A stretch of DNA of 61,452 bases from Gammaproteobacteria bacterium (GTDB taxonomy: Bacteria; Pseudomonadota; Gammaproteobacteria; Ga0077536), in the NCBI GenBank assembly GCA_016191285.1, contig JACPPA010000041.1, positions 1 to 61,452 of the forward strand, read 5' to 3'. A program made the position numbers and the translations under genes. Shown here piece after piece: positions 10,292 through 50,961 of this stretch (position 1 is the stretch's first letter; the number at the start of each line of letters is the position of its first letter). The notes beneath the pieces were generated by a model. The model made no database searches, was not told where the DNA came from, and was given only the letters and a program-made list of their open reading frames with translations.

Positions 10292-12199
10292 ATGAACCGC
10301 GCCGCGACACCCAGTCCCCCGCGGATTTTGCCGCTGGCATTCGCGGGGTTGATCGTGATTTATCTCACGGGTTACCTTGCGTGGTATGGCGGCACGCCGC
10401 TCGGGCGTTACCCGGTGTTGGACGACCGCGAAATCCTGGTATTAGCGAAGCAAATCGCGTCCGGAACCTTACCAGCCGAAGCGTTCTATCGCGCCCCTGG
10501 TTATCCCGCACTGCTCGCGTTGCCGCTGTTGAGTGGGCTCGATCCCATCGCGCTGCCGTGGATCGCGCGATTGATCAACGCGCTCGGCCATTTGACGAGC
10601 ACATGGCTGGTATGGTCCACGGCCGGCTATTTGTGGCCGCGCGCGCGGGCCCAATACGCCGCCGCTGCACTGGTCGGATTCAATCCAGTGCTGCTGCATT
10701 TTTGCGGCGATGCGCTCGACATTACGCTCGGAATTACGCTGATGCTGGCCGGCGTCCACGCGATCGTGCGTGAGCTCACCCTTCGCACCTCGGCGCGCGC
10801 GCCCTGGCTAACCGCGAGTGCCTACCTTGGCCTTGCCGCACTAGTGCGGCCGCAATTGTTAGCGCTGTTGGCCGCGTTACCCGTCATTGCCGCGACGTCC
10901 ACCTCGGCGCGCGGACGTAACGCGTTCGCGAGTTTGCTGCCGGCGTTGCTCGTGCTCATGGTGCTCGGTGCGGTGAACTATCGACTGGCCGGCGATTTTC
11001 GTTTATTGCCTTGGCAAGGCGCTTACAATTTCTGGGCGGCCAATCGGCCGGGCGCGCACGGTCGTTATTTCGAACAGTCGATTCCGATTAATTCGGTCGA
11101 CGAAGCTGCGAACACGGCGCGCCTCGAATCCGAGATTCTCTACCGTCAATCGCATCCGGCCGCGCCTGACGACTATCGCGCGGCGACGGCCTACTGGCAA
11201 ACGCGCACGCTGGATTCGATTCGTGCCGCACCCGTCGCGTGGCTCACCTTACTCGCGCACAAAGCGTACTACCTCGCCAATAACGTCGAGCAATACAACA
11301 ACAAGACCTACGCCTTTCATAAACAACGTTCGCCGTGGTTGCGCTGGAATCCGCTGTGTTGGTCACTACTATTTAGCTTGGGTGCGGCAGGCGCGATCCG
11401 CGGCTGGCAAGTCGCCGGTCTTCGCGCGCTTGTCGTGTGCGGCATGGCGTACGCGGGCGGCGCGCTGCTGTATTTTGTCAGTGACCGGTTTCGCGTGCCG
11501 TTGGTGCCGTTACTCGCGTTGTCAGCGGGCGGCGTGTTCACCGCCACCCCGTGGCCACGCGCCGTAGCCGCCGGCATGGTCGGCTTTGTCGCATTGCTGG
11601 TTAGCTCGATTCCGATTCCCGAACGCGAACAAACCAAGACCGTTATCCAAGACTACATGGCGCTCGCACGCGCCAGCAGTCAGCTCGGTGAAGCGCGCGA
11701 AGCAGTGGGTTACGCCGAACTCGCGCATCGCGTTGACCCAACCCGCCCCGCTGCGCTCGCCCTCCTCTGCGTCACCCGCTTTAACGCCTGGCTGCATGCG
11801 GAGAACGCAGCCCTGACCGATCGCGTTCTCGAGTCGTGGCGCGACGCGTGTGCGCCGGTGGCAAGTTTTTCGCCGGCTGCGAAACGGATTGTGGGCTATA
11901 TCGAGTGGCGCGCAGGACGTAGCGATAACGCCGAGCGCCTATGGCGCGAACTGGTGGTGAGCGGTGGCGAGGAACGCGACACGACACAGGCCTGGCTGTT
12001 ACTAACGGGGTTGTCGAGTGCCGCGCAATTGAGTGCGATCACGGAGCGTGCGCGGGATACGCTCACACCACCGATGTTGTTCGCCCTGGCCTTACGCGGC
12101 GATGACGCCGCGGCGGATCTACTCGTAACACGCTATTCGGTACCCCGACGTGACGCCGAATTCAGTGCGCTGAAACGGCTCTTTGATCCCCGGCATTAA
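10292..12199 (+). CDS. Polytopic glycosyltransferase-like membrane protein (GT-C/ArnT-like)
   Basis: A 635-residue protein with about nine to ten hydrophobic segments in its first two thirds (the first at residues 12-30) and a soluble C-terminal third. The first periplasmic loop holds LDDREILVLA with paired Asp residues and YRAPGYPALLALP, features of GT39/GT83-like enzymes that move sugars from polyprenyl-phosphate donors to lipids or proteins. The C-terminal region (about 450-635) is Ala-rich and helical, compatible with TPR-like repeats. Donor and acceptor are unknown. ATG 10292 has no good ribosome binding site; see the upstream in-frame six-codon leader. Confidence 0.75.
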   Translation: MNRAATPSPPRILPLAFAGLIVIYLTGYLAWYGGTPLGRYPVLDDREILVLAKQIASGTLPAEAFYRAPGYPALLALPLLSGLDPIALPWIARLINALGHLTSTWLVWSTAGYLWPRARAQYAAAALVGFNPVLLHFCGDALDITLGITLMLAGVHAIVRELTLRTSARAPWLTASAYLGLAALVRPQLLALLAALPVIAATSTSARGRNAFASLLPALLVLMVLGAVNYRLAGDFRLLPWQGAYNFWAANRPGAHGRYFEQSIPINSVDEAANTARLESEILYRQSHPAAPDDYRAATAYWQTRTLDSIRAAPVAWLTLLAHKAYYLANNVEQYNNKTYAFHKQRSPWLRWNPLCWSLLFSLGAAGAIRGWQVAGLRALVVCGMAYAGGALLYFVSDRFRVPLVPLLALSAGGVFTATPWPRAVAAGMVGFVALLVSSIPIPEREQTKTVIQDYMALARASSQLGEAREAVGYAELAHRVDPTRPAALALLCVTRFNAWLHAENAALTDRVLESWRDACAPVASFSPAAKRIVGYIEWRAGRSDNAERLWRELVVSGGEERDTTQAWLLLTGLSSAAQLSAITERARDTLTPPMLFALALRGDDAAADLLVTRYSVPRRDAEFSALKRLFDPRH

Positions 12200-12293
12200 A
12201 TAATGAGCTGTAAATACCGACCACCCGAAGTGCGCCGGGACGACGACAGCGCAATCCACCTCGCCTATCGCCACATTAACCTGGTGGGTATTA

Positions 12294-12405
12294 AGGAATC
12301 TCTGCAAAAGGCAGAGATTCCTGCGGCACAGGGATGTGCCGCCATTTTCAATGGTCGCAGACCGTTGAAAATGAAGGAAAACAAAAATCACACTTTTTGT
12401 TTTCC
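12294..12405. repeat. Four abutting perfect hairpins
   Basis: Four inverted repeats follow each other almost without gaps: 12294-12322 (12-bp stem, AGGAATCTCTGC), 12323-12342 (8 bp, GCGGCACA, GGGA loop), 12343-12373 (CATTTTCAA, then GGTC, 14 pairs with one wobble), and 12376-12405 (12 bp, GGAAAACAAAAA). The region lies between convergent genes. The U-rich last hairpin may terminate transcription in either direction, but one would suffice. A structured RNA or a mobile palindrome cassette would explain four in series. Confidence 0.8.
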
Positions 12406-12432
12406 GTACTCTGAAAAGTCCAGGAGGGACGA

Positions 12433-12792
12433 CTATTTTTTCAATATCGAAAGCGGGCTGGCTTGCGCGGAGAAAAACGCCGCAAGGCGATCGATGTCAC
12501 TATCCGTCAGCTGGAGGGCTTGAACTTGCGCGCCCATGATCGCGTTGTTACGTCGACCCGCGCGATAATCGCGGAGGGCGTGCGCCAGGTAATTCGCATG
12601 CTGTCCGGCGAGCACCGGGTATTCTGGCATGATGGGTTTCGCGCCGTTCTCGCCATGACACGCCGTACACGCCGCGAGTTTGTTCTCGAACGGAACCGCG
12701 TCTTCCTTGGCCGCGGCCGCCTCTTCATTAGCACCGGCCGCTGCCGCCGCTAACAAGCCGCACGCAAGAATCATTGGACGCAGTGAAATCAT
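12433..12792 (-). CDS. Small class I cytochrome c
   Basis: A 119-residue periplasmic c-type cytochrome from ATG 12792, which has GGGAGA about nine bases upstream. An upstream ATG at 12840 overlaps the previous gene's stop but would bury the signal peptide. After the signal sequence (MISLRPMILACGLLAAAAAG) comes the haem site CTACHG, then a Met ligand candidate in IMPEYPVLAG. This is the c553/c4-like pattern of electron carriers to terminal oxidases. It is the second gene of a two-cytochrome operon on the minus strand and ends near a tandem hairpin region. Confidence 0.88.
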   Translation of the reverse strand: MISLRPMILACGLLAAAAAGANEEAAAAKEDAVPFENKLAACTACHGENGAKPIMPEYPVLAGQHANYLAHALRDYRAGRRNNAIMGAQVQALQLTDSDIDRLAAFFSAQASPLSILKK

Positions 12793-12836
12793 GTAGAAAT
12801 TCTCCCGGACTTTTTTAGACTTGGACCCGACGGTCC

Positions 12837-13160
12837 TCATTTGCCTTGGCTGGAAACGTATGCGGCGATATCCGCGATCATGTCGTCGCTCAAGTTCGAC
12901 GCATTCGCATGCATCGTATCGTGCTTGCGGCCGCCATCACGATAGGCTTTCAGTGCAGACGCAACGTAGCCTGCCTGCTGACCGCCAATACGCGGCACGT
13001 GGTAAGAGGGATAGACATTAAAATAGCCCTCGATGGCATGACAGCCCATGCAAGTCTCGGCTTCTTTGCGGCCGGCGGCGGCATTTCCGTCCGCACGTGC
13101 CAACGCGGCCGCAGTTATCAGCCCACTCATCAGCAACGCACAAATCATGTGCTTAGTCAT
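12837..13160 (-). CDS. Small class I cytochrome c
   Basis: A 107-residue periplasmic cytochrome c with a Sec signal peptide (about residues 1-23), the haem-binding CMGCH and later PRIGGQQAGYVASAL, the conserved segment of c553-like monohaem proteins. It pairs with the cytochrome gene that follows on the minus strand. Two tandem monohaem genes are often the split equivalent of dihaem cytochrome c4, which passes electrons between the bc1 complex and oxidases; that role is inferred from family and arrangement. Confidence 0.88.
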   Translation of the reverse strand: MTKHMICALLMSGLITAAALARADGNAAAGRKEAETCMGCHAIEGYFNVYPSYHVPRIGGQQAGYVASALKAYRDGGRKHDTMHANASNLSDDMIADIAAYVSSQGK

Positions 13161-13541: not shown

Positions 13542-14474
13542 GTGGCAAAAGCGAAAGCCAAGCCGTCGAAGAAACCAGCGACGCGCGCGGCCGCGCCGGC
13601 CAAGAAGACGGTGGGGGCGAAACGCCCGGTCGCGACAAGTAAGAAACCCGCCCGCGCGGCGCCGAAGAAAAAAGCCGTCACGAAGCCGGCAAAACCGGCG
13701 CCGGCGAAGAAGAAAGCCACCAAGGTCGCACCGAAGGCGCTTGCCACGCCGAAAGTAAAAATCCCGCCGAAAGTAGCTGCCAAACCGGCTCCGACACCAG
13801 TGCACAAAGACAAAGCACCCGTGACGGCTAAGCCAAGCGCGGTGAAGGCCACGAAAGCGCTGGCGAAACCTACTGCAACACCAGTCAAACAGGGATCAAT
13901 TTCCATCAAATCAGCGCCCATTTCGCCACCTGCAGCATCGGTGGCCGATAAAAATCTCGACAAAAAGCTGAAGCCGGACGCAACCAAGAAGTCCGCGACC
14001 GCCAAGATCGCCCCAAAAGCCGAAAGCAAACCTGCGCGGAAGGTGATCAATCTAGACGAAGTAAAGCTCCCGAACGGATATCGCCCTTCGCCCAATGAAG
14101 AATACATGGGCCCGACCCATCTCGCGTATTTCAAACGCAAGTTGCAGAACTGGCGCCAAGAATTGATTGTGGAGTCGCAGGAAACCCTCGAGCACCTGCG
14201 CACCGAAACCCGCGATGTGGGCGACGAGGCTGAGCGGGCGAGTCGCGAGAGCGATAACATCCTTGAACTGCGCACGCGCGATCGCTACCGCAAGCTTTTG
14301 TATAAGATCGATCAAGCCTTGAAACGAATTGAAGACGGGGCGTACGGATTCTGCGAGGAGACGGGCGAAGAAATTGGCTTGGGCCGGCTCGAAGCCCGCC
14401 CGATTGCGACGCTTACAGTGGACGCACAGGAACGACGCGAATTATTTCAACGCCAGTTCCGTGATGACCATTAA
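13542..14474 (+). CDS. dksA: DksA/TraR-family RNA polymerase-binding protein with Lys/Ala/Pro-rich N-terminal tail
   Basis: A 310-residue protein starting at GTG 13542 behind a clear GGAGGT. Residues 1 to about 165 are a Lys/Ala/Pro-rich, histone-H1/AlgP-like tail; the last about 140 residues are DksA. The coiled-coil tip keeps DVGDEA (the DxxDxA motif that reaches into the secondary channel), followed by LELRTRDRYRKL. The zinc finger is degenerate: only one Cys remains (YGFCEETGEEIG), and the positions of the other three hold Thr, Thr and Ala (LTVDAQE). It should still bind RNA polymerase in the stringent response, but without structural zinc. The basic tail may bind nucleic acid. Confidence 0.85.
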   Translation: MAKAKAKPSKKPATRAAAPAKKTVGAKRPVATSKKPARAAPKKKAVTKPAKPAPAKKKATKVAPKALATPKVKIPPKVAAKPAPTPVHKDKAPVTAKPSAVKATKALAKPTATPVKQGSISIKSAPISPPAASVADKNLDKKLKPDATKKSATAKIAPKAESKPARKVINLDEVKLPNGYRPSPNEEYMGPTHLAYFKRKLQNWRQELIVESQETLEHLRTETRDVGDEAERASRESDNILELRTRDRYRKLLYKIDQALKRIEDGAYGFCEETGEEIGLGRLEARPIATLTVDAQERRELFQRQFRDDH

Positions 14475-14680
14475 ACGTTCGCTCTAGAAAAAATAACGAC
14501 CATTAGTCAGGTAGTCATTGTGGTATGCGGACATCTCCGCGTGATCTAACCGCCAGCGGTCGCGGCTCGCTTCAGCGCTCGCGCCATGGAGCGCCGTGTG
14601 CGCGTGGCGGGACGTTCAACCCCCTTGGCAAGGTTCAACTCAGCTGGCGCGCCAAGAGCTGATGCACGATCGGACACGCC

Positions 14681-16093
14681 ATGTCCGGTGAGCAAATTCT
14701 TATCGTCGAAGATCAGCGGGCAGTCGCCGGCGCGCTGAAGATGCGTTTGCGCGGGCTGGGCTACGATGTAAGCGCCATCGCCAAAGACGGGTTTGAAGCG
14801 ATCGAAAAAGCTTCCGAACTAATGCCCGATCTAATTCTAATGGACGTCCGCCTTGGCGACGGGATCGATGGCATCGAGGCGGCCCAGCGCATCCGTTCGC
14901 GACACGACATCCCGGTCATCTACATTTCCGCGCACGTCGATCACAAGCTTCTCGCCCGCGCTCGCGCCACCCGCCCAGCGGGTTTCATCAACAAGCCGTT
15001 TACGACCAAGGATCTCTTAACCGCAATCGATCTCGCCTTACACCGCGAGGCCGATTTCCTCGAGGACCTCGACCTGCATCTTGGACGCGATCCGAGTTCT
15101 AGCGAGCGTCCAAAGGATGGCGTAATCACCGCGGATAGCGACGGTCGCATCGGCTTCATGAACGCCACGGCGGAATCGCTTATCGGCTGGCACCGCCGGC
15201 AGGTGCTCGGTCGCCCGCTTGCCGATCTCGTTTCGGTGCTCTACGACGTGCCGCTGGCGCACGCCACCACCCTCGTCGCCCGCGCACTCGCGAGCGGCGG
15301 CGAAGAGAGTCTCACGCGTCCCGCCAGTGGGCGCTTCAGTAGCGGCAGCGGAATCCAACCGCAAATCGATACGTTGACACCGCTCTATGATTCGCGCGGC
15401 CAGATCTACGGTGTGGCGCTAAAACTTATGGTGGGCCAAAAAACCGAAACGGCGCTCGATACGCAGACGGACCGCGCCCTTGGCAAGGCCCTGGATGCCG
15501 TTCCGCATGGCGTGCTGGTGATCAACGGCGACTTACGGATTCAGTTTTCCAATCGCGCGGCGCGCGATACCGTCGCGCGAAATCGCGGCATCGAATTCCG
15601 CAACGACACCGTCACGGTCTCGGACAAGCAGCTCGACCTGCGGCTACGCGAACTGATCCAGCTCGCGGTCGCCAAAGCCAAGCTGGGGCAAGATCAAGCC
15701 GCCGGTACGATGTTTGTGCGCTCGCCAATGGGCCGCGACCATGTCGAATTAATCGTCGCGCCGGTGCCGGCGCTAGGCCAACCCGAAGCCAGCGTGCGGG
15801 TATTATTGTATTTGTTCGACTCCAACAGTCCGCGGCAAGTTTCCTATGATGTGTTGACCGGACTGTACGGATTAACGCAAACCGAAGCGAAACTAGTCCA
15901 GCTCATGACTAACGGCATGAGTCTGGATGAGGCCGCCGAAGAACTCGAAATTTCGGTAAACACCGCGCGCACCCACTTGAAGCACATCTTTCACAAAACG
16001 GGCATCAATCGACAAACGGAATTGCTGCATCGGATTGAACGCGGACCGGCCGCACTGTTGGTGCGGTTCGACAGCACGCCTAGCGGAAAATAA
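14681..16093 (+). CDS. Response regulator with REC, two PAS-like domains and LuxR-type HTH
   Basis: A 470-residue cytosolic regulator. The receiver domain (1-120) has the acidic pair E10/D11, the phospho-acceptor D55 in LILMDVRLG and the Lys in INKPFTTKD. Two PAS-like segments follow, one around VITADSDGRIGFMNATAE and one around VPHGVLVINGDLRIQFSN. The C-terminus is a LuxR/GerE helix-turn-helix (LTQTEAKLVQLMTNGM, SVNTARTHLKHIFHKTG). REC, PAS and LuxR in one chain is unusual but known. No histidine kinase gene is adjacent, so its partner is unknown. The targets cannot be inferred. Confidence 0.87.
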   Translation: MSGEQILIVEDQRAVAGALKMRLRGLGYDVSAIAKDGFEAIEKASELMPDLILMDVRLGDGIDGIEAAQRIRSRHDIPVIYISAHVDHKLLARARATRPAGFINKPFTTKDLLTAIDLALHREADFLEDLDLHLGRDPSSSERPKDGVITADSDGRIGFMNATAESLIGWHRRQVLGRPLADLVSVLYDVPLAHATTLVARALASGGEESLTRPASGRFSSGSGIQPQIDTLTPLYDSRGQIYGVALKLMVGQKTETALDTQTDRALGKALDAVPHGVLVINGDLRIQFSNRAARDTVARNRGIEFRNDTVTVSDKQLDLRLRELIQLAVAKAKLGQDQAAGTMFVRSPMGRDHVELIVAPVPALGQPEASVRVLLYLFDSNSPRQVSYDVLTGLYGLTQTEAKLVQLMTNGMSLDEAAEELEISVNTARTHLKHIFHKTGINRQTELLHRIERGPAALLVRFDSTPSGK

Positions 16094-26226: not shown

Positions 26227-26289
26227 TGTGGGAGCGGCTTTAGCCGCGAATTGGCAGCAGCGAAGATTCGAAGCTCAAAGCGGCTCACA
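26227..26289. repeat. REP-like palindrome
   Basis: TGTGGGAGCGGCTTTAGCCG begins at 26227 and is answered by AAGCGGCTCACA ending at 26289. The element repeats the consensus of the one at 1836-1897. It fills most of the gap between the convergent rsmE and algR and may act as a transcription boundary, as such elements often do. Confidence 0.7.
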
Positions 26290-50878: not shown

Positions 50879-50961
50879 TGGGTGGGCGTGGGCGACGCCC
50901 GACCATCTAATGAAACGCTGCCTTTTGCAGAGATTCCCCAACCGCGACAAAGGATAATCAC

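Follow-up and report, generated by a model that had tools for sequence, protein, structure and literature searches.

The region at positions 12294–12405 of the window (the whole 61,452-nt stretch of DNA analysed here, contig JACPPA010000041.1 of a gammaproteobacterial genome, assembly GCA_016191285.1) raises the question of why several long hairpins follow one another, almost without spacers, between two convergent genes. A first-pass annotation, made from the sequence alone, had proposed that this array could either be a palindrome cassette belonging to a mobile element or form a small structured RNA. The best explanation, to which we assign a probability of about 0.65, unites the two proposals, as the array would be part of an IS5-type MITE carrying a conserved, predicted CsrA-binding RNA. 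The features of the window to which we refer are as follows:

10292–12199, + strand: gene for a 635-aa protein whose glycosyltransferase-family and TPR matches are weak and fall below their cut-offs
12291–12294, + strand: TTAA, the four bases outside the left end, as left target-site duplication (YTAR)
12295–12430, + strand: assembled part of the element (136 nt of about 151); the right 15-nt end is absent (junction 12430/12431)
12295–12309, + strand: left terminal inverted repeat, 15 nt, resembling the ends of IS5-family elements of the same genome
12295–12321, + strand: hairpin 1, 11 pairs (12 counting the flanking A12294–T12322), loop 12306–12310
12323–12342, + strand: hairpin 2, 8 pairs, loop GGGA at 12331–12334, includes ACAGGGAUGU
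12343–12373, + strand: hairpin 3, 14 pairs, stem strongly covarying
12376–12405, + strand: hairpin 4, 12 pairs, conserved top AAAA-YCRCR-UUUU
12409–12430, + strand: hairpin 5, 5′ part, CAGGAG in the loop region
12433–12840, − strand: cytochrome c gene, 135 aa (PF00034), its stop codon 2 bp right of the assembled element
50912–50936, − strand: probable solo remnant of hairpin 1 (3 mismatches, 0 expected; 11.5 bits, E 0.07)

The arm-pairing check confirmed four adjoining hairpins with spacers of 0, 0 and 2 bases, and the stems of 12, 8, 14 and 12 pairs described earlier were recovered at these coordinates. The description of all four as perfect holds for hairpins 1 (arms 12294–12305/12311–12322, 12 nt), 2 (12323–12330/12335–12342, 8 nt) and 4 (12376–12387/12394–12405, 12 nt), the arms of which are 100% complementary, but not strictly for hairpin 3 (12343–12356/12360–12373, 14 nt, 93%), which contains one T-G wobble. 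Likewise, the four hairpins are present, but a fifth, partial one (12409–12430), comprising in this copy only the 5′ arm, the loop and part of the 3′ arm, had been missed. The predicted RNA fold of positions 12280–12420 has an energy of −71.6 kcal/mol, compared with −32.7 ± 3.7 for 200 dinucleotide shuffles (z −10.5), none of which was as stable (0/200). The ORFs at 10292–12199 (+) and 12433–12840 (−) are indeed convergent around the element. The Rfam search at the gathering score gave nothing for the hairpin region and only a tRNA in the whole window, and in four loci there was one match, below its cut-off, to anti-hemB at L163 (21 of 49.5 bits, E 0.35).

Screening of the own genome (5.1 Mb, 60 contigs) revealed about 85 copies of a five-hairpin element. 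The 14-nt core of hairpin 5 was found at 85 sites (37 + 48) and the right end at 82 sites, each with at most one mismatch, and the respective controls (a reversed pattern for the hairpin-5 core) gave 0 sites. A sequence search of this genome yielded 106 matches, 40 with E < 1e-40 (40 of 130 candidates scored); the weaker matches were largely hairpins that match themselves on the opposite strand. Altogether, 89 own-genome rows were gathered, a few of which (e.g., L077 and L107) are doubtful as copies. Both ends were recognised in 49 rows, the left end was unrecognised in 26, the right end in 12, and neither was recognised in two. The intact element is about 151–152 nt long in 30 of the 49 two-ended copies and, at about 151 nt, has room for no more than 50 codons. 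It consists of hairpins 1, 2, 3, 4 and then 5, with the right end as a palindrome, and is bounded by 15-nt imperfect inverted repeats (GGAANCTCTGCAAAA and GGAANCTCTGAATAA); hairpin 1 is formed by the left end and its inverted copy, and in intact copies the right terminal repeat sits in the 3′ arm of hairpin 5. Equal outer 4-mers flank 38 of the 49 two-ended copies and conform to YTAR in 36 of these 38, one duplication being TGAG, not YTAR.

Several variants of the element were also distinguished. Nine short forms of 80–88 nt have both ends, and those inspected retain hairpins 1, 2 and 5 or a hybrid; three forms (L044, L059 and L080) begin at hairpin 4, L106 is a single hairpin, and longer forms contain an additional module with the hairpin GCCTCAGGATGAGGC. 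At one locus (L011, G000:C49), two right ends lie in inverted orientation 207 bp apart, which represents a composite or nested insertion. Furthermore, the own genome harbors a second, REP-like repeat (GTGGGAGCNGCTTTAGCNGCGA), found in the window at 1837–1858, 26228–26249 and 1875–1896. By a loose match, 6 of 87 element copies (L006, L051, L062, L069, L079 and, doubtfully, L011) seem to abut the TTAG/CTAA of this repeat, a YTAR site.

The absence of the right end from the window copy is shared with other copies, as 27 of the 89 own rows are one-ended (11 without the right and 16 without the left end) and break at nearly the same place. These 27 copies, whether of the 151- or the 152-nt subfamily, retain 139–142 nt when the 4-nt duplication is counted in, any excess over 140 nt being flank bases that match by chance; for L076, the script returned 154 because it tolerates mismatches, and the sequence itself gives 141. 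The distance of the break from the intact end is constant and that from the missing end is variable. Moreover, the contigs of L004 and L017 stop at the same points as the one-ended copies, and L065 restarts hairpin 5 at 140. An assembly graph with k = 141 would leave such a pattern of breaks at about 140 nt. As the break tracks the distance from the intact end, it speaks for an assembly artefact rather than biological loss, and the one-ended copies, including that of the window, are probably such artefacts; we think that about 19 nt (the 15-nt end plus the duplication) are missing at 12430/12431. A biological process removing exactly one terminal repeat would also let 27 of 89 rows break at nearly one place, but it is very improbable, because the constant remainder in both subfamilies follows the intact end, contigs end at the same points and the nine short forms are still two-ended; for the 27 copies we have rejected it. 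Five rows have odd left ends off the 140-nt rule (L049, L077, L082, L098 and L099), and in two of them, L049 and L098, the left part was lost at places matching neither this rule nor a recognised short form. The case cautions that k-mer assembly may truncate repeats of this size at one end.

What could have dispersed the element is suggested by two insertion sequences (ISs) of the same genome. One, of 1,158 bp, has TTAG on both sides, ends GGAACGTCTGAACAAG and GGAACTTCTGCATAAG, and a 317-aa transposase ORF of the IS5 family (NF033581, 337.3 bits at a cut-off of 140; PF01609 and PF05598). The other (L119, G000:C48:11000-13500), of 1,191 bp, has CTAA on both sides and ends GGAAGCTCTGCAAAAG and GGAAGGTCTGAAAAGC, and its transposase reading frame is split between two frames. 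A further locus, L118 (C38:3396), was rejected as an autonomous IS, since it is a lone end beside an ORF that reads like a sulfate transporter. A search by sequence for a solved structure of the transposase gave none at E ≤ 0.01. Similar ISs with ends like those of the local MITE occur in four other genomes (G155, G327, G115 and G287), and in G287, GGAAACGCTGA (CGCTG) takes the place of the usual CTCTGA/CTCTG in the IS and the MITE alike. The equal 4-mers around the foreign ISs are CTAA, TTAA and CTAG in G155 and most G287 loci, and depart from YTAR in G327 (ATAA), in G115 (TAAG) and at L347 (CAAG); 5 of the 14 foreign IS loci examined (L365, L343, L346, L348 and L349) have no pair or chance pairs only.

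A YTAR motif is described for IS5 duplications (PMC10359306). Because IS5-family ISs with matching ends share its genome, the element is almost certainly a MITE of the IS5 type: terminal repeats, target duplications, many copies and a like-ended partner are all present, and both the 4-bp YTAR duplication and the IS5-family transposase of the partner place it with the IS5 group. The earlier idea of a palindrome cassette of a mobile element is thus directly supported. An IS5-family transposase would recognise the about 15-bp ends and move the non-autonomous element in trans, with insertion at YTAR and a 4-bp duplication. Only 10 of 30 host genomes yielded a relative of the own transposase, so that in many hosts the mover may be another one or may be gone.

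To describe the distribution of the family, a covariance model built from 31 own copies was applied with a threshold of E ≤ 1e-5. Of 369 class genomes, 67 contained the family (the own genome is one of them), corresponding to 51 of 274 genera; a DNA search among relatives was positive in 17 of 58 genomes, again including the own one. Three single-contig genomes contain 130, 81 and 36 matches (150 candidates scored each). A search of other genomes for copies, which the first-pass annotation had advised, thus showed the array to be anything but a sequence found once with no conservation. In a cross-genome set of 70 copies (69 foreign, 1 own), equal outer 4-mers were found in 44/70, compared with 0/70 in the shifted control, and YTAR stands on both sides in 36/70. 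In one single-contig genome (G054), we also observed tandem arrays with a unit of about 124 nt (L123 and L124; G054:C1:2568800-2570200 and 13600-14900).

A 20-base pattern of hairpin 2 was present in at least 115 stretches, and the matches listed include Microbulbifer, Halomonas cupida, Saccharospirillum, Sedimenticola, Pseudohongiella, Ca. Tenderia, Lysobacteraceae and many MAGs. Also among the matches listed were L234, L290 and L300 (Klebsiella pneumoniae MAG), L298 (Clostridia MAG), as well as L241 and others labelled as Deltaproteobacteria MAG. For such labels of other groups, mislabelled or mixed bins are likelier than transfer. One pattern or sequence tried against viral contigs gave 0 matches, and the phage, plasmid and E. 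coli collections, each searched with one sequence or pattern, gave no match. Among the listed titles and abstract beginnings of open-licence PMC papers, none describes the element or a CsrA-binding MITE.

The conservation of the fold was analyzed using an alignment of 74 rows, 66 of them distinct, drawn from 30 genomes including the own one. In this alignment, which was fitted to the model and so leans towards its fold, 54 of the 58 stem pairs changed on both sides, 97.5% of cells are paired, and the covariation score is 0.507 versus 0.063–0.089 for slid controls and 0.139 for shuffles. The stems thus covary, as had been proposed for checking. Within the own genome alone, 12 of 59 pairs changed on both sides and 96.2% of cells pair, much of the change being due to two subfamilies. 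The length of the element is also nearly constant, with 151 nt in 31, 152 nt in 21 and 153 nt in nine of 70 copies and other lengths in nine.

Mismatched stem pairs carry information on the strand. Counted once per genome (4 of the 74 rows, partial or overlapping, were dropped), G-U outnumbers A-C by 71 to 23, and by 52 to 23 (p 0.001) when types fixed in at least eight genomes are left out; in the three internal stems the counts are 36 and 12, or 36 and 6 without pair 39/64, which involves the invariant A of hairpin 2 treated below and was excluded post hoc. This excess speaks for the + strand, whether as RNA or as single-stranded DNA. The hairpin core is, moreover, found between quite different ends: in G044 (L040) the same core lies between GAGGGTGTCGC ends and in G153 (L401, L406, L409 and L412) between CAGGGTGTTGAAAA ends, with no clear YTAR duplication in the copies of these two genomes. 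A core kept while the ends change is hard to reconcile with hairpins that serve one transposase only. Judging by stem covariation and loop conservation, the element very probably encodes a structured RNA under selection, and the earlier notion of a small structured RNA gains support from the same features. A structure model would then be at hand for an abundant repeat without an Rfam match at threshold. The top of hairpin 4, AAAA-YCRCR-UUUU, is also well conserved (window 12376–12405, alignment columns 125–140) and, to our knowledge, matches no known motif.

A candidate partner of this RNA is suggested by the loops. ACAGGGAUGU of hairpin 2 matches the CsrA/RsmE consensus [A/U]CANGGANG[U/A] as given for RsmE in PMC6849547. 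Across the family, CANGGANG (C-A-N-G-G-A-N-G) is present in hairpin 2 in 65/70 copies from 27/30 genomes, compared with 0/70 on the minus strand. The A of this motif is present in 70/70 copies, facing T in 51 copies, C in 12, G in five and A in two; an A fixed opposite a varying base would be retained for itself, not for pairing, and such behaviour is what a consensus containing a free N calls for. In hairpin 5, A(N)GGA was found in 69/70 copies, the CsrB-type form CAGGA(U/A/C)G in 46/70, CANGGANG in 14/70 and the strict 10-nt RsmE form in only 11/70. Elsewhere, A(N)GGA occurs in 0/70 copies in hairpins 1 and 4 and in 6/70 in hairpin 3, so that GGA in a loop in the CsrA form, as in sRNAs of the CsrB/RsmZ type, characterises hairpins 2 and 5. 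It should be stressed that the 70 copies were selected from the highest-scoring matches to a model itself derived from own copies, and that their loop conservation is somewhat selected, because such a model favours like loops.

The E. coli CsrA SELEX consensus is RUACARGGAUGU and the CsrB repeat CAGGA(U/A/C)G, and the E. coli SELEX ligands as described mostly have no more than four contiguous pairs (PMC7652899). The stems of the element, of 8–14 pairs, are longer than those typical ligands; C. jejuni CsrA is reported to have chosen loops at the end of long stems (PMC6692469). The own genome contains one CsrA match, the ORF of which is intact by eye. A CsrA match was found in 61/67 host genomes and 257/302 non-hosts, and we rejected this co-occurrence as proof of a link, since most of the class has CsrA and hosts and non-hosts are not separated. 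We also rejected the idea that loops would degenerate in hosts without a CsrA match: in 16 weaker rows from six such genomes, GGA is present by eye in hairpin 2 in 12/16 and in hairpin 5 in 14/16, and in G153, a draft of this kind, CACAGGGA occurs in 6/10 rows. These genomes are mostly incomplete drafts, and the GGA found in them therefore proves little. On balance, the conserved loops favour the RNA of the element as a putative CsrA ligand.

Comparison with known systems shows both affinities and differences. With bacterial IS-derived MITEs, as portrayed in PMC10969869 and PMC2229807, the element shares small size, many copies, inverted ends, target duplications, a mostly intergenic position, a like-ended IS in the genome and a predicted stable folded transcript; it differs in its five separate abutting hairpins, the covariation across many genera and two loops with a protein-type motif. 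The bacterial repeat transcripts treated by Delihas (PMC2229807) form an end-to-end stem-loop, except for CIR, which has two arms. CIR of Caulobacter and Brucella resembles the element in that the folded repeat presents a regulator motif, GANTC, in one of its loops (PMC2229807), but that motif is one of a DNA methylase and the table of PMC2229807 gives no terminal inverted repeats for CIR. REP/BIME sequences are likewise palindromic, intergenic and present in many copies; REPs are linked to REP-associated tyrosine transposases (PMC2817692), whereas the ends, duplications and partner of the element are all of the IS5 family.

GGA in hairpin loops and the CAGGAUG and ACANGGAUGU forms are shared with CsrB and RsmX-Y-Z. 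CsrB has 22 GGA sequences and regulated transcription (PMC7652899), whereas in the element two sites are conserved, the ends are those of a transposon and a single genome can contain up to 130 matches; a simple sigma-70 consensus scan of a single copy (L155) recognised no promoter. If the prediction holds, the element would function as a ligand in the CsrB/RsmZ manner, but as it has two conserved sites and no recognised promoter, and as CsrA binding is predicted only, we set the element apart from the CsrB/RsmZ sRNA class.

The copies are unevenly placed with respect to genes. Among two-ended own copies that have equal 4-mers and sufficiently long flanks, the empty site lies inside an ORF (at least 120 codons, stop to stop) in 14/37, compared with 258/321 YTAR sites and 1825/2000 random points of the window. 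Insertions outside genes are strongly favoured or retained. An orientation bias as a sign of read-through function was considered and rejected, none being clear with the crude ORF caller used: among 87 own copies, 16 are co-directional, 22 anti-directional, 22 convergent, 14 divergent and 13 unclear, and among 70 foreign copies the respective numbers are 15, 16, 15, 19 and 5. The copy-to-gene distances of this count are unreliable, because the ORFs were cut at the element.

The hairpins could also be explained by the mobility of the element alone. In an ordinary selfish MITE, they would serve transposition at the DNA level, as a cruciform or single strand, with template switching correcting the arms. 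Such correction likewise yields double changes, both ends are palindromes of the terminal repeat, the G-U excess of the + strand also fits single-stranded DNA, there is no clear preference in orientation to genes, and no transcript is known. Nevertheless, we regard this explanation as unlikely, since arm correction predicts neither two kept GGA loops amid varying stems, nor a fixed A opposite a free base, nor a near-constant length across genera, and since in G044 and G153 the same hairpin cores are bounded by very different ends.

Two further explanations, both of which we consider improbable, accept an RNA but give it a role without CsrA. According to one, read-through RNA would act in a NEMIS-like manner at gene ends, as a terminator or as an mRNA stabiliser or RNase III substrate. 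The depletion inside ORFs, the stems of 8–14 pairs and the terminator-like sites at hairpin 2 on the + strand and hairpin 4 on the − strand are consistent with it; but these sites are near the shuffle expectation (2 vs. 1.2 ± 1.0 in the region, and 1 vs. 0.6 ± 0.8 in a second scan, of copy L155), convergent gene ends are not clearly enriched (22/74 classified own and 15/65 foreign copies), and the CANGGANG pattern is left unexplained. According to the other, the GGA loops would be meant for a different partner, for instance the ribosome, for which they would be a Shine-Dalgarno-like bait, or an RNA-binding protein that recognises the hairpin-4 loop as well. That loop, YCRCR, is indeed conserved without being a CsrA motif, and drafts lacking a CsrA match keep GGA in most rows; the conserved positions are nonetheless those of the CsrA/RsmE consensus, of which the ribosome would not need the C, the A and the final G.

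We therefore return to the IS5-type MITE with a predicted CsrA-binding RNA, in which mobility and structure are well supported and binding by CsrA is what we infer from the loops. The element would be transcribed by read-through or from a promoter of a type not recognised here, and CsrA would bind hairpins of the transcript. Any effect on the host or on the element itself might then take one of two forms: dozens of copies would tie up CsrA, as CsrB/RsmZ do, or, alternatively to such a sponge, CsrA would be brought to transcripts beside the insertions.

Somewhat more tentatively, at slightly below even odds, the family may represent class-wide mobile RNAs that parasitise or rewire the Csr/Rsm system, combining a predicted CsrA-binding core, the fold and loops of which are preserved, with exchangeable ends (of the GGAANCTCTG type, GAGGGTGTCGC or CAGGGTGTTGAAAA) and spreading sites by dozens. 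If this is true, transposable elements supply an entire bacterial class with ready-made sites for a global RNA-binding regulator, which would offer a route for Csr regulons to grow and to differ between species or, alternatively, a route for a selfish element to act on its host through RNA.
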